The notes beneath the pieces were generated by a model, which did no database searches, was not told where the DNA came from, and saw nothing but the letters and a program-made list of their open reading frames with translations. Below, one piece after another: positions 3,301 through 63,692 of a DNA stretch of 64,000 bases (position 1 is the stretch's first letter; each line of letters opens with the position of its first letter). Source of the stretch: Halichondria panicea (Eukaryota; Porifera; Demospongiae; Suberitida; Halichondriidae); assembly GCF_963675165.1 (NCBI RefSeq), contig NC_087381.1, positions 5,519,378 to 5,583,377 of the forward strand, given 5' to 3'. The position numbers and the translations under genes are program-made.

Positions 3301-6300
3301 ATTGTATATTATAAGCACATGTGCTTGTAGGGTTATGTATAGGTGAGCTTATGATTATGATATTGCCTGGCGAACTGATCACTGAGCTCATTAGAGAACA
3401 ATCATTCAAGCATTGCGATGCTAAATGCCTCGGGGCATACATGTTTCATTGATACTATCAAGAGTTTATGATAGAGAGAGAGTATCGAACGTAGGCATAC
3501 TGTACATCAGATGTATGCGGAGAGTAACGTGACTTCCTGTATCTGTCACAAGCTTGGAATTTGCACACTGACCAATCCAAGCGTGGGTGATGTAATCTAT
3601 CAACCCATCCAAGTGTGGGTGATGTAATCTACTTTCTTGATAGATGACATCACCCACACTTGGATTGGTCAGTGTGCAAATTCCAAGCTTGTGACAGATA
3701 CAGGAAGTCACGTTACTCTCCGCATACATCTGATGTACAGTATGCCTACGTTCGACACTCTCTCTCTATCATAAACTCTGGGTACTATGGAGTGGTATGG
3801 AAGAGAACTTAAAGATGTGAGGGGAAAATGTTGTGTATACATGGTACCTGTAGGCTTTGCATGTATATAGTGTTATGGCTGGACCTTATTGTAGAATTCT
3901 GCCCGGATCTCATTTGAGTAACTATGCGCGTAATTTTCAGGAAGAAGTGTGGATGTATGATGTATTTATTGCGCATGAATTCAAGTGGCTCATGATGTCC
4001 ACTGCTGTACTAACTATAGCCTAAACAAACATGTAAGTGAAGCTACATGTATCAAGACCTCAAATTCTACTCTGTAGTTACTTACCAGATTCGTCCATGC
4101 TCTCTTTCTATTTAAGCTTCCTACCTAGGTATGATCCCCAGTCACTGTCCTGTCATTCAACAAGGCCAGTCTAGCTTCCCTAGAACCTCTCTGAGGTTGT
4201 ACTACGGAGATCTTGTAACATCGACAATTATCAAACGGTCACATTTCTTTCGACGATTCTAAAGCAAAAATAATATTAAAAATACCACGTGAAAAAGCAG
4301 CTCAATGCGCATGTGCATAGCTCCAACACAGTGTGCACAAATTATGTTTTGAACTTGATCGGTAGCCATCAGAGGAGGTTATGATTTCAGTGTAAAGTTC
4401 TAGCTTGTTTTGTTGCGTATCAGAGACTGAGAGCTGACTGTTTTGGACTTCCTGGCTCCTTGGGTGTATAGCTACCCGACATCCAAATATCCTCTTCATT
4501 CTGACGAATTATCAGTGCATAGAATGTTTGCTAGATTCCTGCCAGCCAGTATAATGCAAGCTACAGCACCGCTGATTATACTCTACCTTTACCCTATACT
4601 ATAGTCTAGCTAATCTCTCTCAACAGATACAGCTAGTCAGGCTCAGTACAGTCGGACATAGCAATAACTTTTTGCAGTTGTTCGGTATCTATGGTGACGG
4701 GATAAAAAACTTTAGGAATGTCACATGAATGATGACACATGTCCAACCTCCTCTGGGTAACCATGCCGACAATAAGTCAGTTAAAGCGAGGAAAGAGTTA
4801 AGAGATTCAATAATATTAGATATGGAGATATGACTATACAAAATAAATGAGAGACTATAATACCTGCTAATGACATTGTAAAAATATCTATGAAAAATAG
4901 TTTGGAAGCTTGAAAAGTCTCATGCTCTCAGCATCCTATCGTTTCTGCTAGTTCGTATCTTTGTGATGTCCCTCACACGCATTCGTTTCAGCATCTGAGT
5001 GATGGTATTCATACTTGTCTTTCTTACGATCCCTCACTCCACACACGACAATGATGATTAGACTACCACAGCATACAATGAGCAGGATCACCACAATTGG
5101 TACCACTATGGCAACAGTCAGATTGACTATAACTGCTACTTCAATCTTTTCCGTGGTGTCAATGGTGCTTGTAGTAGTGTCAATGGTGCTTGTAGTAGTG
5201 TCAATGGTGCTTATGGTAGTGTCAATGGTGCTTGTGGTAGTGTCAATGGTGCTTGTGGTAGTGTCAATGGTGTCAGTAGTTTCTTCTTCCTCTGGTAAAG
5301 GTCGATCTAGATCTGAGAAGAAAATACAAAGCAATGAAGTCGAGTGCACAGGGAAGCCACGTATATACCTATGTACATGTATTAAGGACTGCCTGAATAA
5401 ATTATTAATAATGACTACTTATTATTGACTCTTGCATGGTACCACATTTCCATAATTTTATTGGCAAAGAACAGCCCTTTCATAATAATTATACGTGGGG
5501 ATGGTGTGCATGGAACTATTTTTCATTGTGTAATGTGTGCTTACCATCGGTAGATACCATGAAACTGTTGGTATCGTTTACACTGACAATAGTTGTAAAC
5601 AAAGTGACATTAGCAACAGAACTGCAGTTGACAGCATTGTCTCCCAATGGAATAATGTTTATGACCTCAAAAGAATTGGATGTGGCTGAAACTTCAATTC
5701 TCCACTGATAAATGGCCTCATTTGGTGCTGTGATTTCTGTTGACGCGTACAAAACGACACCCCCTTCTTGTACGGTGAGATTAAATGACACACCACATTC
5801 GGAAATAGTGAATTTCCACCGAGCCTGCTCCCCACGTTCCAGTTCACCATTGTTGGTGGTGTTTCTTGGAACAGGTGTTGTAACTGGATTTTGTTTGAGA
5901 ATAGTAGTAATTAATTATTGTAGGCCTGCATACGTATATATATAAAGGCTACAATGTCATATATATATACAAATTATAGTGGTGCATGGGCCCTACGATA
6001 AAAATGGTATCAGTAATTACAATCATTAGCATGCACGGTATAGTACGTGCTAATAGTATAGGGTTGGATTTTAGTTGCAAATGAAAATGAATGGTTTACT
6101 TGTGTTGCAAATCTGTTCCTCTTGAGCACTCTGAACGCACGACAACTGTGAGAAGTCAACAGAATTGAAAATATGCTGCTGTTGACTGGCAATGGCTACC
6201 AAATCTTCTCTCCGAAATCTAGTCCCGACTCCGATTGCAAACACATTAATAGGTGGAGAGGCAGCCCTCAAATCAGCCGCAGCTTCAGCAACTGATGAAT

Positions 6301-9300
6301 AGCCACAGTCGTTAGTGTTTACTGTAGACTGCCCATCAGTTAATACCATGGCCACTCTAAACACACTGGGATCTGTACGACCTTCAAAACTCGGAGAAGT
6401 TTACAGAGAGCATCTGCATGGTATGTTGGTGTTTCCTCCATTATAAGGAATAGCTGCCACAGCATTTTCCAAAGATGTAGCGTTGCTGTGGGTGTCTAGA
6501 CGAAATTGCTCCTGGGCAGAGGTGCTAAATGTGATCACACCTACTCGATTATCATTTGGTCCGATTTTCAAGCTGTCCACATACTGTGCAGCAAACTGTC
6601 TCACTAGACTAAAATCATCACGCCCAACACTGCCAGATTCATCCAGGACCATCACAATATCGCTATTAACCCGACAGGCTGTGAATGATACAAAGACATG
6701 CTGTTGATTAAATTAACATAAAATTATAATGCCATACAACGCTTTCACTAAGACTGAATCTGTTTGGCAGTAATGCATGCACTTGCCAATAAATTTATGC
6801 ATGTACATGTATATCTTTCTCTTACGATTTTTGCTTGTCAAGAGGGTAACGTCTTCAATATATGTCTCCACAATGGTGTTACTGCTGTAGTGCGTACTCC
6901 AGTAAGCAGCCTGTCCTGGTACATCACACGGAATAGATTCTGTATCAGAAATGTTTAACAGAAACAGTCTCGCTGCTATTCCCGAATAAAGGGGAATCCT
7001 CAAATCCCTCCACTGCACACTCGGCCAATCAATGTTGAACGCCGTTCTTACGGCAACATTTTGTGTACTAGATCTATTTGTGTCTTGAGTGCTCAAAAAC
7101 TTATCTTCATCCACCTGCCATATGCCTCCATTGTAGCCAGGTCGATACGTATCCGTGTCAGTTTCATCTCTCGATTCAACAAAAGCGATTCGCCTGAGAA
7201 GTTGTCGATCAAAACCGAACATAGCTTGGATTCTATTTACTGCTGCTCTGACAACATCGGACCCGGATGCTTCTCTTTGCAAAGTCAAGTCCACTCCCTG
7301 AGCAGTCAGTAGAGGGAGTAATGCACTGAGAGTAATCAGCACACTGAAACTAGCAGTCTTCATTGATGGATTGATTGATTGTCAATAATGAGTTGATTAG
7401 GATTGTTAAAGTCACAATGATAGTTTGATAATAATTTTGGTCATAACTCGGTCCTTTTATAGCTCTTTAGGTTGAGTGGTGCATGCCTGTACCTTATGTG
7501 CACAAAAACTTTGATGTGCTGGTGTAAGATGCAGGCATGCATGCACTGAGGGTATGGTACTGGAAGCAAGGGGAGGGTAAGTACTGGTAGCGATTAAGGG
7601 GAGGGTATAGTGTACTGGTAGCAAGTAAGGAGAGGGTAGCACAGGAAATGACATACTGTGCATGGAAGTAAGGGTGCACATGCAGCGAGGAACGTACAAG
7701 ATATATTGTATAGCCAGGGTACCAAAATAATAATAATTAGCTTCCAAATGGGAGGATGCACATGTACTGTGACGTATAAGCTTACGAGTAATACGGTAGT
7801 GTGATCATACTTGCATGTGTATCCCAACTTCCCCCAAGCCTGAGATGTCATTCTACATGTATGTAATGAAACCTGAGTGTTGTATGAAATATACATGCAG
7901 GTATACAAGCTGGTGAGCTGCCTGCATGTATATTGCATACGACACGAATTTTATATCATAGCGATCTTTACCAAATTATGCCTCGAGGCTATACGTGACC
8001 GTGTAATGTTATAAAAATACGGTTAGGGACTGTATGAATTTCATTACTCGCTTGTTACCTTGACAACATGATGTTAAAGTGGTGGAGCTACCCACGCTCT
8101 GTATGAGTAATTGATAGCTAAGAACTTTTAATCACTCTAAATTTACTATGCGATCTGTTCCTCCCTCAGGGCTTTGTGGCTACTCTGAAGGACAGCTACG
8201 GATTTATAGAGTCCGAGGAGCACGACTGTGAACTGTTCTTTCCCTTCACGTGAGCAGGGCCGGGGTATTCGGTGTCAGGGTCGTGTTAGTGTTATGTTAG
8301 TGTCAGGGTCATATCAGTGTCAGGGTCAGGGTCATATTTATAGTGGGGCTCCTTCTCATGTGAAATAAATAGTGTGGAAATTCCACTACATGTAAATGCG
8401 TATATACATGTAGTGGAACTCCCCTTCTCTGATATTCATGTGCAGCGTACAGTACATGTACATGTATGTAGGGCCTCACTAAGGCCCTGTATGGAGGGCT
8501 GGCCACAGCTACATGTATTGCAATAACGAGTTTACATTTGCAGCAGTTTCATTACCATTTTGTATGCCATGGACATATTTTGTCAGAATCATTAGATTTT
8601 AACCAGTAACTTGTTCTAAGCTCTAACTATTCCATATGATACGTACATGCAGCTCCCTAAGAGCTACTGAATGCATACATGTACATGTATTATTTTAGTT
8701 TTGATTTTGAAAATTGGTCGATCCAAACTAAAAACTACAGTCAGTCAAAGATACAGCATATATGCGTCACTGGGATTGTAAGGCTGTAGTCATGGCTTGT
8801 TTACTTTTCTTCCTTTGTCACCTCCAGGTCATGCAACGGATTCTGCGACCCCCATGAGCTCAAGGTGATGGACGAGGTCGAGTACGGTATAGTACGCAAG
8901 AACAGCAAACTGTCGGCTGATGAGATCACCAAACTGCCCCAAGGCACTATTCAATCGGAGGTGAGGGTGTAGTGTTAAGGTTTTATTTAAAGGGAGGGGG
9001 CGCTAGTTAGGGCACATCTGGCTATAGCTGCCAATGCAAGCAATGTACATATACATGTATACAGTACATGTATACAGTACATGTATGTATGGTTTCTATT
9101 CTCCGTAAATGCCTAACTTTTAATGGACCACAACTTGCTGTTAGATCGGACCTTTTCAAACGTACGTGACAGATACAAGTGGCACCTGAGATAATTGTAC
9201 TCAGTCTAAAAACAGTAAAGCACCCACAAGGATTGCACATGTACAGCTACATGTACTCTTGCAAACAAAGGAGTCGAACAAGAAAGCGCCATTAGAAAGA

Positions 9301-31806: not shown

Positions 31807-31898
31807 GAAACCTTGGATTCATCCTATAACTATATATAGGCAATTTCCTTGAGCACAACTAGATCATTATTATATTGCATTGTCTCTCTTTATTATAG

Positions 31899-32161
31899 AT
31901 CAGCTTCTAACCGAGGAAGAAGTCATCACTGACACTACTATAAACCCCCCTGAAGTAGTAGTCACAGTCAATCTAAACACGGCCATAGTGGTACCAATTG
32001 TGGTGATCCTGCTCATTGTATGCTGTTGTATTCTAATACTCGTTGTCGTGTGTGGAGTGAAGGATCGTAAGAAAAAAAGTTGTCAATCCGATACTGAAAC
32101 GAGTGCGTTTTTGGATAAAAAAAAGATACGACTGACTGAGTACAATACTTGGATACTATAA
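31899..32161 (+). pseudogene. Orphan LVP membrane exon
   Basis: After an acceptor (TATTATAG) it encodes DQLLTEEEVITDTTINPPEV, a hydrophobic helix ([18 protein letters not shown]), and a basic, Cys-poor tail (CGVKDRKKKSCQSDTETSAF) ending at TAA. It matches the last exon of LVP copy B at 38762-39009. No lysozyme-like, VWA or beta exon lies upstream on this strand; the minus-strand DUF7869-like remnant is there instead. It is most simply the 3' stump of a lost LVP gene. The reading frame is still open, so loss may be recent. Confidence 0.75.
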
Positions 32162-42370: not shown

Positions 42371-45300
42371 ATGAAGACTGCTACTTTCAGTGTGCTGATT
42401 ACTCTCAGTGCATTGCTCCCTCTACTGACTGCTCAGGGAGTGGACTTGACCTTGCAAAGAGAAGCATCTGGGTCCGATGTTGTCAGAGCAGCAGTGAATA
42501 GAATCCAAACTGTGCTTGATTTTGATCGACAACTTCTCAGGCGAATTGCTTTTGTTGAATCGAGAGATGGAACTGACACGGATACGTATCGACCTGGCTA
42601 CAATGGAGGCATATGGCAGGTGGATGAAGATAAGTTTTTAACCACTCAAGCAAATAGTGCACTGAATGTTGAGAGACATGACGCCATAAGAGAGGCGTTT
42701 GACATTGATTGGCCAAGTGTGCAGTGGAGGGATTTGAGGATTCCCCTCTATTCGGGAATAGCAGCGAGACTGTTTCTTTTGAACATTTCTGATACGGAAC
42801 CTATTCCGTGTGATATACCAGGACAGGCTGCTTACTACAACCGAGTCTACTGTGGCTTGACATGTAACGAAACAGAGCAGCACTTTGTCGAAAGTGTTAA
42901 CATAATCTCGGCAAACAGAAACTGTAAGTCCTTAATACAGGTTTAAACCGCAAATTGATAAACGTATTATGCCAAAATACGATTTGTACAATCATGCATG
43001 TACAGTTATACATAGTGTAATATCCATGGTATTGTATAATTATATATATTGTAAGTTTAATGTTTTATTTCATAAAAGATCGAGTGACTGCACTATAATA
43101 TCCTGATTTACAGTTAATAGCGACATTGTGATGGTCTTGGATGAATCTGGCAATATTGGGAAGACCAACTTTAACCTGGTGAAACAATTTGCTGCACAGT
43201 ATGTGGGTAGTTTGCAAATCGGACCGAATGACAATCGAGTAGGTGTGATCACATTTGGCAGTCATGCCCGGGAGCAATTTAGTCTAGACACCCACAGCAA
43301 CGCTACATCCTTGAGAAATGCTGTAACAGATCTTCCTCATGCTGGAGGAAACATCAACATACAAGATGCTCTCTGTCAACTTCTCCGAGTTTTCTCAACT
43401 GAAGGTCGTACAGATACCAGTGTGTTTAGAGTAGCCATGGTCTTAACTGATGGGCGGTCTACAGTATACGATAACAACTGTAGCTATTCATCGGTTGCTG
43501 AAGCTGCGGCTGCTGTGAGGGCTGCCTCTCCACCTATTAATGTGTTTGCAATTGGAGTCGGGAAAGATGTTCGGAATGAAGATTTGGTAGCCATTGCCAG
43601 TCAAGAACGGTATATTGTCCGTATTGATAACTTCTCACAGCTGCCATGTGTTCAAAGTTATCTAGAGGGACAAATCTGCAACATAAGTAAGATCATTCGT
43701 TCATAAATAATTATTGTTACATAAGCCCCCTATGGAGTTCTTATAAACAAGAAGTATTATAATTATAATGTCATTCCATTTCTGTAGCAACGACTGTACC
43801 AAGAAACACCGGTACCACCAACAATGGTGAACTGGATCGTGGGGAGTTAGTCCGATGGAAATTCACTATTTCTGAATGTGGCATGTCATTTAATCTCACT
43901 GTACAAGAAGGAGAAGTCGTTTTGTACGCGTCAACAGAAATCACAGTGCCAAATGAGGCCATTTATCAGTGGAGAATTGAAGTTTCAGCCACATCCAATT
44001 CTTTTAAGGTCATAAACATTATTCCTGCATTGGAGGACAATGCTGTCAACTGCAGTTCTGTTACTAATGTCACTGTGTTTACAACTATTGTCGGTATAAA
44101 CGTTACCAACATGTTCACTGTATCTACCAATGGTAAGCCCTATAGCTCAATGCACTTATACAAAGTAGTCTCCCCCGCCCTGCATGCATGTTTATATGTT
44201 TTTGTTGCCCAGTGAGTGGGCAGATCAAAGCAATCCATTGCTGTGTATATGGCATCACTATACCACCATGCATGCAGAACATAGGTTTCAAAAGACCTCT
44301 AATTTTGACTAATGCCACACCATCCCACCCAATAACCCAATTGGTCCTTTTTATAGAATCTACCTTTTGTACTAGTTGTGGGAAGCAAAACTAATGATTT
44401 ATGATGGAATTCGGCAAAACTAATGAAATCACTCAAAACACATGAGAGAAAAACTTGCCCAATCAGAAAAGTTTGACGTCATTGGGCAAGTTAGTTATTG
44501 CAGGCGCCCTCGTGCAACATGCCAAATAACTAGATAACTTATAATCCGCACTTGTGCTTGGCAATAACAGAATGAGAGAAGAAGTATTACCATTTCATTT
44601 TCATGATTCTATTTGAGCTGCTTTTGTTTAGCTGTGGTGATGGCCTAGTTGATGAGATCAGTCAGAGATAAAGTATGTTGGATTGTGGTCTGCCACAACA
44701 TGTTCACCTGTAGTTGTTGAGTTAGCACCACAGCACTGCATGTGATTCTTTCTAACTGTGGACGATATGCTTGTCAATTGGTTAATTCTATCACCGCCTT
44801 CCTCAGCCCCACAGACTCAGTGTCCTCCTCTACCGGCCATTCTCAATGGATTCATCACCTACGCTCCTGACAACACACCTGACTATGATCTGGGAACTGT
44901 GGCTACTTACGCCTGTGACATTGGGTTTGTTCTAGACCTCTCCCTAGGAGGATCTGAGATTAAAACTTGTGCGGACAATAATAGACTGGATACTATTGGA
45001 GCGTTTGATAACCTTAACCAAACTCTAAGATGTACCCGTGAGTAAGATATCTCCTATAAAATATACCCTATTTTGCAATGTACACTATTTTATTGCAAAT
45101 CTTCCATCTGTATTACAGCCATTGAGTGCCCTCCTCTACTGGACATTCCTAATGGTACGATCTCCTACTCTCCTGACGTCAGCCCTAATTTTGATCTGGG
45201 AACTAATGCAACCTACACTTGTGACGATGGATTCTATATCATGGATGTCACTGAGGCACGAGTTTGTATGGATGAAAATGCTATGGGAGTGTGGAGTGGT

Positions 45301-48300
45301 CAGAAGCCTCTTTGTATCGGTACGTTATTGCATACTTTAAATATACCGAGGTAGTGCACGTCTCAGACTTAACGAAATTACAGCCATGTATGCATGGAAT
45401 TTAAGCATAAGTCTTGCAATGCATGACATCTATATAAATTATACATGCATGTATACATGAATGTTTAATAAAGATATTTTAGCAGAGCAATAATTATAGA
45501 GACATTGCATGTGTCTATTGTGCACGACCTTAATTTGTATTTGAACGTCCATACATGCATACTCTGTTTTTGTTGCTTAGTAAACAAAGTCATGCGTTTC
45601 ATCTAGCTATCAATTGAGATGCTGATGATTTGACTACCTAACTCTTATCTGCAAGGGAATTAACCGTAGCTACATAATTATGCTTAACAAATCATTCTCT
45701 CTTACAATGCACAAAATTATGTTTCAGCTGGCTGTGTAGCGGGTATACACCAGGATCATTCTTGGCCCAACACGGCACTAGGGTCTATTGCGCTGTCTCC
45801 TTGTCCATGTGCTGAAATGGGTGTGTTTGCAGGGAATGTCAGCAGACAGTGCTCTGGGTCAATCAGTGAGGGAGGTATGTGGAAGGATGAGCTTGACCTC
45901 AGCAGCTGTGAGACTACACTTTCAGACATATCCCAGGAATTGTGTGAGATTACACTAGTAAGTGGTTTGAATAAGTGTATAGTATAACATCTGTGTCATG
46001 TTTGTTATAGCCAGCTATAGGATTTAGCCACTTTAATTAATGTACTGAAAAATCATGGAGTATAGCAAGTCCATCGCAGTAAGAAATATATATAGTGTCC
46101 CTTAGTCAGTGTACTCACTTAAAGTGAAACAAATGATTGGCCCGGTGCCCCACCACCCAAGGTTTTACTCATGTCTGGATGGTAAACGTTGCTGTAAATA
46201 ATAATTATTATGCCTCGAGGCGTAGCCGCACGAGGGATACGGTAAAGCTGACTGTGTGTGTGTCTGTGTGTGTGTGTATTCCAGCAGTAACTGCTCAACG
46301 GTTGCAATGCGACGAAAACTAACAGCTTCTATAGGCTTCTAGCCACGTTCTCTTGGATTTTGATTCGTGGATTAGCAAACTAAAGCTTCTTTCTCTAGTT
46401 ATGGCTAGTTTGACTCACATTGAAGGCTGTTGCAGTCTCTTCAGAATCTTTCATAGCATCATCTGTTCGCACAAACTTTCTATTCAACATATGAGTTAGC
46501 CTTGAACTAAAGCGCTAGCTTTTTGTTAGCTACAAGACTCAAAAAATATCTGTTAAAACAGCTAGCTAGCAGTAGCCATTTGTGAAAATTGATCTCTTTG
46601 GACACACCCTTTAATTATTGCTGTGGATGTAATGCGCATGCGCGCTCATTCCCCATGTGTGAGAAAATAATATCCAAGATCCAGATCCAGATCCTCCTGG
46701 CAGAATCATCTTTGTCTTGAGGGCTAGGGCCTGGTAAGCCATAAAACACTACCATATAACAATATTAATATAGATAACAATATGCATGTACAGGTCTTTT
46801 CTTCTTAGATATTATATACACTGAACTACAGATCCTGGAAGAATCAATTTTCTTCTTTCTTGAGGTCCTGGTAAGCCACATAATACAACAATAGATGCAT
46901 GTAAATAAATGTTTTCTTCTCAGTGACTTTATATAGATAAGCTAACTTTAGATAACATTCTAATACTTTTGAGCGAAAGCAAAAACATGGCGAGAGGCAT
47001 TAGCACAGCGCCAGCTTGAACACTAGTTATTATAGGCACTCTCATCAAATACAACAACAACAACTCAAGCATCCAATCAGATTGCCAATATCACATCTAA
47101 GCCACAAAATCTGACTACAAATCAAATCGCCATGGTTACTTCAATAGTAGAGCAACTAACAGGAGAAGCTACTGTCAACCAAGAGGTAAACATTGTTACT
47201 TGAAGTCCAAATTAATTTTAATGACTCTTCACATGTCCATGCAGGTGAGGGACAACTATCTTCAAACAATCAACAATATTCAGCTAGCCGATGCTGAAGC
47301 CATCTATCAGAGCCAGTTGGCAATGAATTCATCAATAAGGTATCACATATATATATACAGCAGATTTAGGGGGGGGGGAGATATACGTAGGTGAACATGA
47401 CGCATGAGAAGTGATCATTGGAGCTTTACCTGCAGTTCAAGCAGAAAGTGGTAACCACGTGCACAAAATTCATATCCACGAAGACAGAACTGACTACAAA
47501 ATTAACCTTCCGGAAATTACCCGCTATAATTTTACGATAAATTATTGCAAGCTTGAACAACTCCAAATGCTTTGGCAACAGATTGCCGCTCATATACATG
47601 CACTTGCTCTTAAAAGTCCTTGGTCTTTCCCAAATGATTGCTGCTATAATAAGTATAATTATTGTACCATGCATGCAGTAGTGGTTTTTGCACTATGTCA
47701 ACACATAATAACTTTATAACGTTATACAATAGTTGTGAGCATTAATGTATCTTATTTTACTGGCATAGGATTCTTGCAAGCCTCAATTCATTTCTGGACA
47801 ATCTCAATATTTCAACTGTTTCCAGAAACTCCACAAGCAATCGGACTGTTTTCAGTTTCGAAACATTTGCTATCACAGTGCAAGATGTATACCCTGACAG
47901 TTTCCAGGGCCAGACATTTGTTGTTGATTTAGGACCTGTCGAAGAGGCAATTAACAATACTGGCGTTATCGACCAAGATGCTCTGATGAAATTTAATGGT
48001 GGTAAAGGTAATACAGCTGATAACAGATCAGACAACAAAAACTCAACAGCTTCTCTCCATTTAAGCCCATCAATTCTTGAGGATTGCCCAGCAACAAATC
48101 GTACCTCGCTTACGCAGAGATTAAGTTACTCTGTTTTCTTGTCTGGTGTGCTTTTCCTTCCTGAGAACAGAAGTACTAATCAGGTGGGATCTATCGTGGT
48201 AGCTGCAAGACTAGCTTGTCTGCAGACCAACAAGACAGTACCAGTACGGACAAGCTTTCTGATCAGGACGATGGTAATTATAAGAAACTTGAATCTTAAT

Positions 48301-50114
48301 AGCTATATACTTAATAAGTTACTTTGCCTGCAGGATAATATCAACAGCAGCAGTTGTGCTGTGTTTAACACTCAAGGTTAGCGACTAGAATAATTGAGGA
48401 CACTTTTACTATTATGAATCATCATGGTGAAATATCTTTAGTATAAGCTCACAAACAAAAAGTATACTGTCATAATGCCGACTATTTCAGATCGGTTTGG
48501 AGCTTGGGACACTGCTGGATGTAAAGAGATAGCCAGTTCCAATGGGAGAAAAGATTGCGAATGCAGACAATTGGGCCATTTTGGAATACTATTTGTAAGT
48601 TTATATTTGCATGGCAACGAAATTAATGAAATCACAACCTTTTATGCACCTCACGGTTACAGGATTTGAATCCAACTTCATTGCCTGAAAATCTTGCAAT
48701 TGCTTTGAGCACCATCACATACATTGGCCTGGGCTTGTCTGTAGTTTGTCTTCTGGTGTTCATGTTTACCATTTTTATCAGCAAGTAAGTGGAAGCCTGA
48801 TTACACCAACTTATAAGCTTGACATTTCTATTTCCTTCACAGGAAGCTACTCGCTGATAAGCAGAACCAAATTCTCATCAACATGAGTATTTCACTGATA
48901 TGTCTGTACTTCACCTTCCTCATTGGAGGGTTCACTGTTGGTGTCCCACCTCTCTGTGGATTCGTGTCTGCCCTCCTGCAGTACTTCTTCCTAGTGTTTT
49001 TCTCCTGGATGGCTGTAGAAGCTGTCTGGCTCTATATCAAACTGGTAGTGGTAATGGGATCTGATTCCCTCACATCCAAGTTCATGCTGAAGGCTGGGCT
49101 CCCAGCTTGGTGTAAGCAATCACTCGATTTAAACAGTGTTCGTTTATAATTATTATGCATGCATGTATACTTAAGGGATAATTCATTCAATTGAACGCAT
49201 GCACAACATTGTGCTTCTTGACTGTATAGTGATGATGATTTACCACTCCACATGCAGTACTCCCCTTCGTGATTGTAGCCATAAGTGCGGGGGCAGGCCA
49301 CCAGCACTACAACAATCCATACTAGTAAGTGAATCAAATCGTATATAAGATAAAATAAACTTGGCCGATTCTTTATGTTCAGCAAAAAAACATGGGTCTG
49401 GGGGCAATTAAGTCAAATCAAGTACTGTGGATCCTACAAGTTTTGTGTATAGTTACTTAACTCAAATCATCATAATTATGTAGTCTCAATACTGGAATAT
49501 TAGCTAGGGCATGTGCATGGATGTACCCCGTCATTCATTCATTCATATACACACATTACTATTGATTCAGCTGTCGTCCTACTGAATGGCCTTTCTATTT
49601 TGGATTCATTCTTCCTTTTGTCATCATCTACGTACTCAACTGGATTGTGTTTGTTGCCATCATGGTGTCCATTTGCAAGCATTATGTCAACGGAAACCTC
49701 TCACCACTAAAAGAGAGCTCCCAAAGTGAACAGTTCAGCAATTTTAAGAAGAACTTGACTATTGCAATGTGCCTATCGGTTGTACTTGGCCTGGGTTGGG
49801 GCCTTGGACTAGCATCAACAAGCTCTGGTCTGGTGGAGCTGTCATTTCCGTTCCAAGTGATATTCTCGATCTTTGTGGGCTCTCAAGGTGTGCTTATCTT
49901 CTTTTTTTATGGCCTTCGAAGTACTGATTTTTGCCAGACATGGATAAAACTCTTTAATTGCTCTAAATCTAACACTGATAACTTTGTGTCTTTTGAGAAA
50001 GGAAGTACTACTCAACGTACGGTTTCTGGCACTGCAGTAGAGGAGTTATCGAGCATGTCAAACACATTGCCGAGAAAACAGTACGCCCAACACAACGAAG
50101 AAAAAGAACTATAG
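42371..50114 (+). CDS. Gene C: chimeric adhesion GPCR with lysozyme-like, VWA and CCP ectodomain
   Basis: Fifteen exons: 42371-42923, 43114-43686, 43788-44132, 44807-45037, 45119-45319, 45728-45957, 47036-47185, 47245-47339, 47769-48273, 48334-48376, 48491-48594, 48663-48784, 48843-49111, 49258-49324, 49571-50114. They sum to 4032 bases in one frame, 1343 residues. Order: signal peptide and lysozyme-like domain (1-184, FVESRDGT and GGIWQVDE kept), VWA (185-375, DESGN), PPC-like domain (376-490), two CCP domains (491-567 lacking the Trp, 568-634 with it), HRM (635-711), GAIN (712 to about 975), GPS-like (to 1010, CRQLGHFGIL), seven membrane segments (1011 to about 1285), tail ending HNEEKEL. 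Exons 1-3 match LVP copies B and D; exons 6-15 match gene E. No signal-peptide exon precedes the CCPs, so exon 1 is the only start I can find. Joining rests on phase and order, not on a transcript. Confidence 0.78.
46205..46640. repeat. Dispersed repeat in gene C intron 6
   Basis: TTATGCCTCGAGGCGTAGCC, a GT microsatellite, then CTATAGGCTTCTAGCCACGT; same order as 37675-37850. No coding sequence is seen in the rest of this intron. Confidence 0.6.
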
Positions 50115-54985: not shown

Positions 54986-56107
54986 GCTTTCAACTCTATC
55001 AATAGGAAATCCGCCCTTCATAACGTCAGTGTGCTGTGTCCCCTCCTTGCACAAGTGCTCATCAACACATATATAGTCACCCTGTCCGCTTGTTTATCAC
55101 AAATGGGGGTGAAATTCAAAGTACAGAAGGCACTACCCAAGGCGACCCCCTGGCAATGGCCATGTATGCCATTGCCATTGCCACTATACCACTAATTAGA
55201 AAACTGAAGGAAAAGTGCCCAGATGTTAAGCAAGCCTGGTATGCAGACGATGCCACCGGAGCCGCCTCATGTAATAACCTAAGGTATTGGTGGAATGAAC
55301 TCTCTCGACTAGGGCCCCTCTATGGCTATCATCCCAACCCAGCCAAAACATACCTGGTTGTAAAAGAAGAGCATAAGGAGAACGCCACCTCTGCCTTTGC
55401 TAACACCGGAGTTCAGATCACTACAGAAGGCAAGCGCCACCTTGGAACTGCTATAGGCTCACACAGTTTTACCAAAGAATATGTCACTGGAAAAGTTGAG
55501 GAATGGACACAGGAAGTCGAACGCCTCGCTCGGGTTGCAGTATCACAACCCCAGGCTGCATATGCAGCGTTCACACATGGTCTCACAGGCAGATGGACTT
55601 ACCTACTTCGAACAATCCCAGACATACACAATCTCCTCTTCCCTCTAGAAACAGCAATAAAACATCTTCTCATCCCTGCTCTATCAGGCCTCCCATCTTG
55701 TTCAACGCTAGAAAGAGATCTACTCGCTCTCCCTGTGAGACATGGAGGATTGGGCATTGTCAACCCTACAACCCTACCCTCACAATTCTACAAGGCATCC
55801 GAAACAATATGTAAACCCCTAGTCTCTCTCATCGTGTCTCAAGACATGGATCAGAATGCAGACCCGATGATAACAGCAACCGCTAAAAGAGATGTGAGAG
55901 CCCTGAACCGTGCGGAACATGCTCAACAAGCCAATGATGTCAAGGACAAGTTACCCAGTGATCTGAAACGTCACGCAGATCTGGCAAGTGAAAAAGGAGC
56001 CTCATCATGGCTATCGGTTATACCAGGAGCCCATAAAGAGAAGGAGCGACTAAATTCAACGTACACTCGGGGATCACGTCTCGTAATTGCCGGTGAAACC
56101 GCACTTC
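54986..56107 (+). mobile_element. Truncated retroelement reverse transcriptase
   Basis: The reading frame encodes DAFNSINRKSALHNVSVL (RT motif A, D-A-F-N) up to about 55068. It shifts by two bases in a TATATA run, then continues as LFITNGGEIQSTEGTTQGDP (motif B), WYADDATGA (catalytic YADD, 55238-55264), LGTAIGSHSFT and KEKGASSWLSVIPG. These are the palm and thumb of a non-LTR-like (LINE-type) element common in marine invertebrates. Both ends are missing: a TAA stands just before DAFN and the frame runs into receptor exon DNA at 56108, giving an open frame to 56133. With the frameshift it is inactive. Confidence 0.8.
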
Positions 56108-56245
56108 TTGGATTCTATTCACTGCTGCTCTGACAACATCGGACCCGGATGCTTCTCTTTGCAAAGTCAAGTCCACTCCCTGAGCAGTCAGTAGAGGGAG
56201 CAGTGCACTGAGAGTAATCAGCACACTAAAAGTAGCAGTCTTCAT
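56108..56245 (-). pseudogene. Inverted partial first exon of an LVP gene
   Basis: On the minus strand, ATG at 56245 opens [20 protein letters not shown] and continues to AAVNRIQ, then stops matching at 56108, where the retroelement begins. Only the signal peptide and about 27 more residues remain; no catalytic-like Glu, no VWA. It carries its own copied promoter on the left arm of the palindrome. Confidence 0.85.
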
Positions 56246-57934
56246 TGATTGATTGAGTTGATATAAATGTGTAAAAAGTCGCAATCGATAATATGCTTTT
56301 GCTGGACTTGTAAGTCCTTTATAGCTATATCACACAATTTGTGACTCCATAATTATGCCACGTTTTGCATTTTGCATCTATAGGAAGACTCCGGACGGAA
56401 AGCGTTATTATGATTGGGAACAACAAACATGCGCACGAGGAAAGGTGCACGACTTATGATACTGTACAATATAATGTACTGATTCAGTTGTGGGTGTGAT
56501 TTCCACTAGTTGTATGCTAATTAAGCACTGTGATCGTCTCATGTCAATCTCATGTCAATACATGCAAAGCACCTATACCATGCACAGAGCAAGAGCATGA
56601 CCTGGACATGTTTTATACACCTGATCTATATAGTGCCTCAAAAGGTATTCAGATCTCTATAAAACATACTTATATAGTCATAAATCTACAATTTCAAAAC
56701 ATGCACTGAAACTTTGTTCCTGCAGTATAATTATACAGTCATTGTAGATGAACCATATAGATCTAGCAAAGCCATGCATGCATACTGTATGCTGTAAAGC
56801 CACATCACATTTGTAGATATGGATCGATGCTATACAGCTGCACACACAAACATATATTGCATGAATGCATGGGTGGGTACAGTGCATGGTTCCAATCCCT
56901 GGGTATATATATATATCAACATAATTATACATGCACTACTGTTTTTTACATAATGCATGATCGACAGATCATGAATCTATAAAGCAACAAGGATTAGAAA
57001 ACTAAAACAGTGATTTTGTCATCTTCACAAATTTCCTATTATTTTTCAACCATGCACTGTCTCATTAGATTTATGACTATATAAGTATGTTTTATAGAGA
57101 TCTGAATGCCTTTTGAGGCACTATATAGATCAGGTGTATAAAACATGTCCAGGTCATGCTCTTGCTCTGTGCATGGTATAGGTGCATGTGTATGGGAACT
57201 GCATGGGGGACACATGCATGTGTGCTAGCGTATGCATGTATATGAAGGAAAAATACTGAAAATGGCCGGGGTGTGCTTATCCATGCTCTTGTTCAACATC
57301 ATTTGTTAGCGGCTATAATCTGTTCAAGCAGTATACATTTTATGACATTGTCATGTGTAATTGGGAGATCAGAGTTAATGCCTGCATGGCATGCGTGCAT
57401 GTGAAGTGTGAAGGATATCTTATAATGGTGTAACCACCAGATAGGATGTTTATATAGGAAAGGGATTACAGCATTGATACTCATAGTCTTTCCTATTATG
57501 TCAACGTGTGTACTCATTAATAATAAGCAAGGTGAATATTATGCTAATGTCCTTGACTGCATGCTTAGCCTCAAGTATAGTATGCTTAAATCCTTCTACA
57601 GCCTTATAACTACACAAACAAATGCATGAGGTCATGCGCAATTATGGGACAAGCACTCTTATACTCTTGGAGGAAACAGGCAATAGAAAGCTAGACATCC
57701 TTTGCATGTATTGACATGAGACGATCACAGTGCTTAATTATCATACAACTAGTGGAAATCACACCCACAACTGAATCAGTACATTATATTGTACAGTATC
57801 ATAAGTCGTGCACCTTTCCTCGTGCGCATGTTTGTTGTTCCCATTCATAATAACGCTTTCCGTCCGGAGTCTTCCTATAGATGCAAAATGCAAAACGTGG
57901 CATAATTATGGAGTCACAAATTGTGTGATATAGC

Positions 57935-61461: not shown

Positions 61462-61845
61462 ATGGCCAACAGAGATGACTATGACCTTTTATTCAAGAGT
61501 AAGTTGCAACATTTCTCTGAATGAAGGACACTTATAATTGGGAGCAGTCACTTTGTTTATTATAGAGAGGCTGTTTCTTAGTGTGGGATGACAATAACAC
61601 TGCATTCTGTTCATATTCAGTCTATCCTTTATAATTATAAGAGGTTTCACAGCATTTAACCTTAGTTACAGTGGAGCTTAGTCAGCTCTATCACGTACTG
61701 TGCATGTGCTTTGTGACGTGTTTTAACATCAGATGTATGGGTAGTATTGTACACACCCACACACGCACACACACACGCACACTCCCCCACCACACACACA
61801 CACCCTTCACACACACACACACACACTCCCCCACACACTCCCCCA

Positions 61846-61903
<58 letters not shown>

Positions 61904-63692
61904 GTGTTAATTGGTGACTCTGGTGTGGGAAAGTCTAACCTCCTCGCACGATTCACGAGGGACGAGTTCTTCTTAGAATCTCGGACAACTGTGGGGGTGG
62001 AGTTTGCCACTCAGAACGTCACAGTGCAAGGGAAAACCATCAAGGCTCAGATCTGGGACACAGGTACTGTGTAAAAACTCTTAGACAAAAGTTTCAAGAT
62101 AAACACGAGAAATTTTTTACCTTCGGGAATGTGGAATGTAATTAGTAGCTAGATCTAGCACATGTAGAGCAATATATAGAGCCTTCAAATAATTGTTTCT
62201 GTGAAGCTAAGAGTGTTCATTGTCATAGTAGAGAGAGTTAATAGGCTGTATATACGTCCGTCTTTGAGAGGCTAGTAAAAACACTACACTAGACTAACAG
62301 TCATTCTTAGCCATGTTTACTTAATAGAGAAACTAGTAATACCGTGTTAAGAGATTGCTTTCACACTCTTTGTGTATGTTGTTTAAGTATATCTACAAAA
62401 GGATAACTATTACCTAAAATCACAATGACTGTCAGTCAGTACTTGGCAACAATCGATGATGTGCTTTTATTCTTCCACAGCTGGACAGGAGAGATTTAGA
62501 GCCGTCACCAGCGCGTAAGTGTGTGTGTGTGTGTGTATTGTACATCGTAACGTACAGTTGAACTCGTAGAAGGCAAATGTGGACTCCCTGTACAGGAGTA
62601 TGTATTTCATTTGTCCCAACTAATAAAGACTATTACATAGTCTAGCTAGAAAACACGTCAGTGAGATAATAGTACTCAACCCCTAAAATGTCATGTGCTT
62701 TCTCTGAAAAAAGGACACCTCGTATAACAATTAGGACTCTCAACTCAGTAGAAGCATGCACGTAGAAATCAATCTTCCTTCGAAATGAGGACACCTGAAC
62801 AAAAGATACCCTAGGTCCCCAAAGTATCCGAGGCTCCGGTGTATTATCAGCGTATAGTGTTTCGTGTCTCAAACATCATGGGCTTTAAACTACCTTGAGG
62901 TGACATATCTTCACAGGTAGATTTGTTGCGTTTTCACTGTTTACATGTAGCTCGATCATTGTGAAATTAACGTTTCTAATTACTCGCAAGTGGTTTTAAT
63001 GAGATTCTTCATTGCATTTTCCAATTATCTGCGAGTACAAATTTTTGTGATTTTACTCTCACTCGCATAAATAGCAGAAATTATTACTCGCAAAAATATG
63101 TCACCTTAAGGTATACTGTGCATTCCCCCGCTCTACAGTTACTACAGAGGAGCAGTGGGTGCTCTAGTGGTGTACGATATTGCTAAGCATCCCACATTTG
63201 AGAATGTACAGAAATGGCTGAAGGAGCTAAATGACCACGCTGATCCAAACATCTGTATTATTCTGGTAGGAAACAAGTCTGATCTAAAACACCTCAGGGC
63301 AGTACCGACTGACGAGGCTCAAGAGTTTGCTAGTGAGTGTTTGTGGGGGTGGGGCATGCATGAAATGGAGACTTTGGGGTCATTAACCTGGCTGTATTAA
63401 TTGTAGAGGGTACGTGCAATCCTCATAAACTGTATACAGATACAGATAATTATGTATACGACGTATAACGAGAGTTACTAGGGAATTTAACTACAGCATT
63501 GTGCACCCTAATGGTACTGGCTCTTTCATTTTTATTCGTGAGGTCTGAGTAGGCTACCACGCTGTAAATGCTGCATATACATGAACGTACATGTGCTCTA
63601 AACCCCTGCAGAGACCAACGGGTATGCATTCATAGAGACATCAGCTCTAGACGCCACCAACGTGCAAATGGCCTTCAATAACATCATCGGCG
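61462..63692 (+). CDS. RAB11A: Rab11-family small GTPase, 3' end outside window
   Basis: Coding exons 61462-61498, 61902-62063, 62481-62514, 63139-63332, 63612-63692, in phase. Start [12 protein letters not shown] resembles the Rab11 N-terminus. G1 GDSGVGKS, switch I with [10 protein letters not shown]3 [20 protein letters not shown] (Gln kept, unlike Rab25), G4 [13 protein letters not shown] and G5 [10 protein letters not shown] are all present; [10 protein letters not shown] is a Rab11 signature. The C-terminal hypervariable part and prenylated Cys pair are beyond 63692. Rab11 directs recycling endosome traffic. RAB11A versus RAB11B cannot be told apart for a non-vertebrate. Confidence 0.92.
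61751..61900. repeat. CA/CCCCCA microsatellite abutting a splice acceptor
   Basis: Runs of CA with CTCCCCCAC interruptions, ending directly in CACAG, the acceptor of RAB11 exon 2 at 61902. Confidence 0.9.
62064..63138. other. RAB11 introns, no other gene seen
   Basis: Apart from the 34-base exon at 62481-62514 there is only non-coding sequence. Near 62895-63110 the words AGGTGACATATCTTCAC and ATGTCACCTTAAGGT with ACTCGCA / TGCGAGT words form loose inverted repeats, likely a decayed MITE. Confidence 0.5.
63355..63412 (+). repeat. Dispersed repeat fragment
   Basis: ATGGAGACTTTGGGGTCATT and ACCTGGCTGTATTA, TAGAGGGTACGTG: same family as 45-110 at the other end of the window. In RAB11 intron 4. 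Confidence 0.6.

Follow-up and report, generated by a model that had tools for sequence, protein, structure and literature searches.

Adhesion G protein-coupled receptors (GPCRs) are thought to diversify through changes in their N-terminal modules. In Amphimedon, 40 adhesion receptors have been reported, at least 8 of them with an HRM domain, in the available part of the published survey (Krishnan et al. 2014, PMC4302439), and the accessible text of a separate study traces animal GH23 lysozymes to bacterial transfer (PMC12855814). Our searches of open-licence papers gave no description of an adhesion GPCR combined with a lysozyme domain, and the terms 'lysozyme' and 'VWA' are absent from the main text of PMC12716839 and from most of PMC13197933. 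Here we examine a locus in the sponge Halichondria panicea that appears to hold this combination. It lies in a stretch of 64,000 nucleotides (NC_087381.1, positions 5,519,378 to 5,583,377; hereafter the window), which is part of the contig that we label C5 in a genome of 131 Mb. The original prediction, made from the letters alone, placed a fifteen-exon adhesion GPCR gene at window positions 42371-50114 on the plus strand, to which all exon coordinates below refer. We read the locus as a single gene for a chimeric adhesion GPCR that carries lysozyme-fold, VWA and CCP modules and probably stays uncut, and we give this reading a probability of roughly 0.6.

The predicted chain could be rebuilt in full. 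Its fifteen exons sum to 4032 nucleotides, that is 1343 amino acids and a stop codon, in a single open frame with no internal stop, with GT-AG at 14/14 introns and phase 1 entry for exons 2-6. The first three exons make up what we call the LVP module, consisting of a signal peptide and a lysozyme-like domain (exon 1, 42371-42923), a VWA domain (exon 2, 43114-43686) and a conserved unknown domain (exon 3, 43788-44132). Two CCP/Sushi exons follow (exon 4, 44807-45037, entered in phase 1, and exon 5, 45119-45319), and then an HRM-like exon (exon 6, 45728-45957). The GAIN region begins in exon 7 (47036-47185) and runs through exon 8 (47245-47339) to the main GAIN exon (exon 9, 47769-48273). The GPS motif begins in exon 10 (48334-48376) and continues in exon 11 (48491-48594). 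The 7TM part occupies exon 12 (48663-48784, helix one), exon 13 (48843-49111), exon 14 (49258-49324) and exon 15 (49571-50114), the last of which also encodes the cytoplasmic tail and the stop codon. The VWA, CCP, GPS and 7TM labels all held against Pfam, over the respective cut-offs: VWA at 3.7e-33, Sushi at 4.1e-11 in two stretches, GPS at 9.5e-7 (29.7 bits against a cut-off of 22.5, residues 968-1009, ahead of the first helix) and 7tm_2 at 2e-27 (96.5 bits against 20.6). For HRM the Pfam match, at 5.4e-4, lies under the curated cut-off (20.7 against 26.2 bits); across the genome this exon is matched 13 times, and 12/13 of these matches have a GAIN-exon match no more than about 7 kb away. 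The GAIN region itself gives a sub-threshold match (E 0.68) to a Pfam model of a GAIN subdomain. An Rfam search of the whole window returned no match over its cut-offs.

The identity of the first domain is central to the argument. After a signal peptide, recognised by eye, exon 1 keeps a putative catalytic Glu63 in the motif AFVES and then GGIWQ, the last residue of which is 83. No Pfam family matches it up to an E of 10. The profile phrog_3108 matches it at E 2e-10 and matches 6/7 LVP members (best 1.5e-20). This profile represents a phage family listed as of unknown function. In the sponge genome its model has 11 hits, each at an LVP exon 1, and in 14 control genomes it has none. Relatives of exon 1 occur in three bacterial metagenome-assembled genomes (37-42% identity), as the last part of a viral protein of 1061 residues, in an uncultured phage of 636 kb and on many viral contigs, where 157/161 pattern matches encode a relative of the bacterial query; the best 80 of the 157 were kept. 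A Glu-Ser pair, a Gly and a Trp-Gln pair are invariant in 8/8 rows of one alignment (A4), and the Glu and the Gln in 23/23 rows of a wider one (A6). When a family profile built from 38 phage and bacterial rows (of 86) plus 7 LVP rows was compared by hhalign with E. coli Slt, MltC and MltD, it aligned with probability 72, E 3.4e-5 and a score of 35.9, across 42 columns that surround the active-site motif; 0/60 column-shuffled controls reached that score (maximum 19.3). A search of the PDB with the wide family alignment placed three goose-type lysozyme sequences at the top, matched in the active-site region at E 0.035-0.31. Within the family, Pfam recognises SLT in 2/23 members (best 1.5e-4), Phage_lysozyme2 in 1/23 and neither in the others. 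The signal depends on the width of the alignment: hhalign failed with the LVP rows alone (probability 0.4) and was weak with 8 rows (5.6), PDB searches from 7 LVP rows and from 8 rows gave one and two chance matches, and five bacterial or phage relatives gave nothing in NCBIfam and chance matches alone in Pfam. The 'lysozyme-like' label is thus upheld by the profile comparison and can be put more exactly: as judged from these profiles, the assignment of exon 1 to a GH23/SLT-like domain holds as a remote relation, and the simplest reading is that the exon-1 family is derived from bacteria or phages. On the phage side, phrog_3108 (L058-L137) looks like a GH23/SLT-type lysozyme family.

For exon 3 the single Pfam match is DUF5091 (E 0.11, under the cut-off). 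The 'PPC-like' label proposed for it had to be given up, with 0/7 LVP members matching PPC at E up to 10. The prediction had also known of no adhesion GPCR with a lysozyme-like domain next to VWA; the pair is not peculiar to the receptor and proves to be the core of a wider LVP family. Exon 1 has 16 matches in the genome (some are pieces of one damaged copy), the VWA exon 15 and exon 3 12, and exon 1 is 35-58% identical to its C2, C12 and C7 relatives. At five near LVP loci (LVP-a, LVP-b and LVP-d in the window, L026 and L040) exon 3 is followed by a single-membrane exon that tblastn shows to be homologous between loci, and in LVP-a, -b and -d its entry is in phase 1, the same as for the CCP exon of the receptor gene. 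A hydropathy scan of the 2.2 kb that follow each of 13 LVP loci (one C7 gene was scanned from its VWA exon, its exon 3 being unmatched) flags the five near loci plus both C2 and both C7 genes, and the flagged stretches resemble each other within the C2 pair and within the C7 pair. In the C12 gene the flags lie 1.3-1.8 kb off and are unlike the LVP membrane exons, and the scan flags nothing downstream of the receptor gene, of its inverted copy described below or of a copy of LVP-a. The older form of the near LVP relatives was most likely a single-pass surface protein, and this lysozyme-like/VWA protein family may be a sturdier find than the receptor fusion itself.

Several side observations concern the family and the window. 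In LVP-a (window 4951-7363, minus strand) the VWA exon is interrupted by a stop; in its near-copy (L028/L029) the VWA exon is open, exon 1 is in three frame pieces and the membrane exon was not found. An LVP-type membrane exon, tmB, stands at window 31898-32158 (plus strand), with no LVP exons detected upstream on that strand within the window. A truncated LVP exon 1 (56084-56245, minus strand) adjoins an open frame at 55024-56329 that by eye resembles reverse transcriptase. Further along, at 61745-62074 on the plus strand, an exon that by eye encodes a Rab-like GTPase follows a simple repeat.

The LVP part meets the receptor part at intron 3 (44133-44806, 674 bases). Exon 3 ends at a gtaag donor that leaves phase 1, and exon 4 (CCP1) opens behind a pyrimidine-rich CAG acceptor in matching phase. 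No membrane exon homologous to that of the other LVP genes was found for the receptor gene or its copy, and in the 2.2 kb after exon 3 of the receptor gene the best 19-residue hydropathy is 2.06. Intron 3 yielded no first exon that both resembles a signal peptide and has a strict donor (6/300 random stretches of 674 nucleotides have one), and among ATG-started frames confined to the intron the longest spans 68 codons. The original prediction had named transcripts that end after exon 3 with a separate membrane exon, or a promoter and signal-peptide exon of its own for the CCP-7TM part, as signs that would speak against a single gene; at the level of DNA alone neither is seen. Its single-gene claim gains indirect support from the missing membrane exon, the want of a good signal-peptide exon in intron 3, the matching phases and the varied N-termini of sister receptors.

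The HRM-GAIN-7TM cassette seems to carry different N-termini, because four sister receptors each have a different set upstream of HRM (domain names by eye, gene membership by position). We recognised, by eye, Calx-beta-like repeats and two CCP domains in L045, at least seven CCP domains in L046, and EGF-, Ig- and LDL-receptor-like segments in a C7 sister receptor. The fourth sister, an adhesion GPCR inside the window (24816 to 16791, minus strand) that belongs to this subfamily too, has a signal-peptide exon that we call spX upstream and the same QLG at its GPS as the receptor gene. Elsewhere, at C7:4788510-4795514 (L036/L037), an LVP gene and a receptor of this subfamily, both of them distant relatives, face each other in convergent orientation on opposite strands inside some 7 kb. 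By megablast, the likeness of the receptor gene to other LVP genes breaks off no more than about 25 bases past exon 3. Bases 67-396 of intron 3 (window 44199-44528, plus strand) match a dispersed repeat found on many contigs at 69-96% identity, the top values coming from short pieces; at least 57 matching pieces exist besides the gene and its copy (40 of 422 candidates scored). A plausible course of events is that an LVP module lost its single membrane-spanning exon and gained a CCP-HRM-GAIN-7TM cassette, perhaps by recombination in the repeat-bearing intron.

The same exon order recurs in an inverted copy 0.42 Mb away (C5:5132519-5139401). Its exons are 94.8-100% and its introns 96.4-100% identical to those of the receptor gene, with 96.4% for intron 3; introns 13 and 14 come to 78.5% and 66.2% in that alignment, and intron 6 differs in length by 819 bases. 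As two separate loci have the same junction, a single mis-join of the assembly is ruled out and was set aside. The copy otherwise carries little weight as independent support, since most introns are about as similar as the exons and the copy is broken. Much of the neighbourhood is repeated as well: a stretch in opposite orientation around C5:5141-5184 kb matches window 1718-41027, with the exception of 3651-5443 and several brief interruptions, at 97.4-99.6% identity in the long pieces. This is either a recent inverted duplication or two haplotypes on one contig.

If the gene works as a receptor, the chimeric protein would sit in the plasma membrane, where its lysozyme-fold domain, probably a weakened enzyme with the acid residue kept, would bind peptidoglycan-like or other glycans, and the VWA and CCP domains would add adhesion. 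Pull or a conformational change would then expose the segment GHFGILF, which follows the GPS in exon 11, to the 7TM domain, which would signal through G proteins. Tethered agonists have characteristic hydrophobic positions, and this segment keeps such positions. The likely function that we predict is binding of bacterial or matrix glycan at the lysozyme-fold end, relayed to the 7TM part via GAIN. In another sponge, A. aerophoba, an adhesion GPCR gene goes up after exposure to microbial patterns, and in D. avara GPCR genes go down, according to the available text of that study (PMC6208332). The response in A. aerophoba makes the idea of microbial sensing a reasonable one by analogy; it concerns another gene.

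Several observations weigh against a functional chimera encoded by one gene, and they have to be considered together with the explanations that they favour. The locus could instead hold two neighbouring genes, namely a secreted LVP gene that stops after exon 3, either because the intron is retained or because a terminal exon has escaped notice, and next to it an independent receptor of the CCP-HRM-GAIN-7TM type whose first exon has gone unrecognised. An in-frame ATG (MLVNWLILSPPSSA) stands ahead of CCP1, intron 3 offers two loose signal-peptide-like starts (115/300 control stretches have some), and the frame read past exon 3 runs 27 codons into the intron before it stops. Nor is the arrangement a common one: at 2/12 GAIN-exon loci an LVP exon 1 of the same strand lies no more than 10 kb upstream, the receptor gene (5.3 kb) and its copy (4.5 kb), and at the remaining 10/12 it is more than 680 kb off or absent, a count that leaves out a truncated exon-1 fragment (C5:5575458-5575559, minus strand) that lies upstream of the other receptor in the window, some 35 kb from it. 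The hydropathy threshold is also loose (118/300 random 2.2-kb stretches of the window pass), so that the membrane exons of the C2 and C7 genes (n=4) rest on position and mutual likeness and only the five near loci, which carry the comparison, are firm. Against two genes stand the absence here of the membrane exon that those five relatives share, the want of a strict-donor first exon in intron 3 and of an spX-type exon nearby (first exons further upstream having been sought by likeness to spX only), and an exon 4 that opens at a well-formed acceptor in the right phase. The lack of AATAAA or ATTAAA in intron 3 points the same way and is weak evidence, as there is none in the 486 bases after the receptor stop either. 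On balance we think two genes unlikely and one gene quite probable, the splice from exon 3 to exon 4 being predicted from genomic DNA.

A single chimeric gene might still be non-functional, a by-product of local duplication with little or no transcription that is now decaying. The inverted copy has a stop in its VWA exon, a 2-base insertion in its CCP2 exon and a donor of exon 13 changed from GT to AT; this damage means that it is no voucher for function, and LVP-a and its copy are damaged too. With one locus and one degenerate copy, the arrangement may be young, rare or non-functional. Residues expected of an active VWA domain and GPS have changed as well. An intact VWA metal site (MIDAS) reads DxSxS, T and D; here it is partly lost by eye, with DESGN and GGNINI and the TDG kept, and the VWA domains of LVP-d and L040 have DESGS and xxTNI at the same positions (also by eye). 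The usual GPS motif is C-x-C-x-H-L-T/S, and some adhesion GPCRs lack the triad needed for autoproteolysis, which is optional. In the receptor gene CECRQLG lacks the HL-T/S triad, against CKCTHLG in the C7 paralogue, and because this GPS lacks the cleavage residues we expect the GAIN domain to stay uncut, bearing its tethered agonist. Yet the gene in the window is open over all its codons with every splice site intact, and a comparison of the two copies gives a dN/dS near 0.36 for either half (0.0109/0.0304 over 482 codons and 0.0217/0.0598 over 841 codons, codons with gaps or stops being omitted). With paralogues, 14 exon comparisons give ratios between 0.23 and 0.97, several of them weakly constrained (VWA 0.74-0.78, one exon-3 comparison 0.97, exon 7 0.96). 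Values below 1 would be equally expected of two separate genes. A decaying by-product seems to us rather improbable, and about equally so the proposal that the gene encodes an active cell-surface lysozyme on a 7TM anchor, which would cut peptidoglycan while the receptor part reports the cutting or merely serves as the anchor. The conserved Glu and GGIWQ and the kinship with phage and bacterial proteins speak for such an enzyme, as does the part taken in digestion by a placozoan GH23 lysozyme, described in the accessible text of PMC12855814. It is opposed by the loss of the strongest C-terminal motif of the family, YWKKYYNTxxGxGT, which has become YYNRVYCGLTCNET here; WKKYYNTxxGxGT is kept in the C2 LVP and, with small variations, in the phage and bacterial rows. 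Because of this loss we expect weak or no catalysis from the domain, with binding perhaps retained. As for the origin of the chimera, repeat-mediated joining is plausible; its basis is the presence of the repeat, and repeats may be common in introns here.

We thus return to a single chimeric, probably uncut adhesion GPCR as the preferred reading. A longer history can be sketched tentatively, and we regard it as possible without thinking it the likelier course: a muramidase-type domain of phages or bacteria would have been captured by animals, have become part of a single-pass VWA family and, by recombination in an intron, have ended in a non-cleaving, wall-sensing adhesion GPCR. Should transcripts confirm the junction, this would be a new type of sensor, with a lysozyme-fold domain as the sensing end of a GPCR, and if the functional proposal is true the gene would be a concrete candidate for a peptidoglycan-sensing GPCR. 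The presence in one genome of the junction intron, of relatives without the receptor part and of sister receptors makes the route of fusion testable.

Judged by its sequence the locus is a real, well-formed chimera, and its receptor form is a variant of the adhesion GPCRs, present at one intact locus. Receptors of the ADGRV type bear Calx-beta repeats, and a likeness to them exists in the sister receptor at C5:6.49 Mb, a paralogue and not the receptor gene itself, which by eye has Calx-beta-like repeats and 2 CCP domains before the same HRM exon. Calx-beta and ADGRV are both mentioned in PMC12716839. In common with GH23 goose-type lysozymes and lytic transglycosylases, the gene has profile similarity and VES...GGIWQ, where E. 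coli MltD has VES...AGIWQ; unlike GH23 proper, phrog_3108 is an uncharacterised phage and bacterial branch, seen by Pfam as SLT in the two family members mentioned and not in exon 1. The Amphimedon adhesion GPCRs, as described in the available part of PMC4302439, resemble the present gene in joining an HRM-GPS-7tm_2 cassette to variable N-termini. The domains named there include EGF, fn3, Ig types, SRCR, SNARE and DUF, with no lysozyme-like, VWA or CCP domain among those named in that part, and the figure gives a selection. The closest comparison lies within the same genome: LVP genes with a membrane exon share exons 1-3, their order and phase and the signal peptide with the receptor gene, and where they end in one membrane-spanning exon and a short tail, the receptor gene has CCP-HRM-GAIN-7TM.

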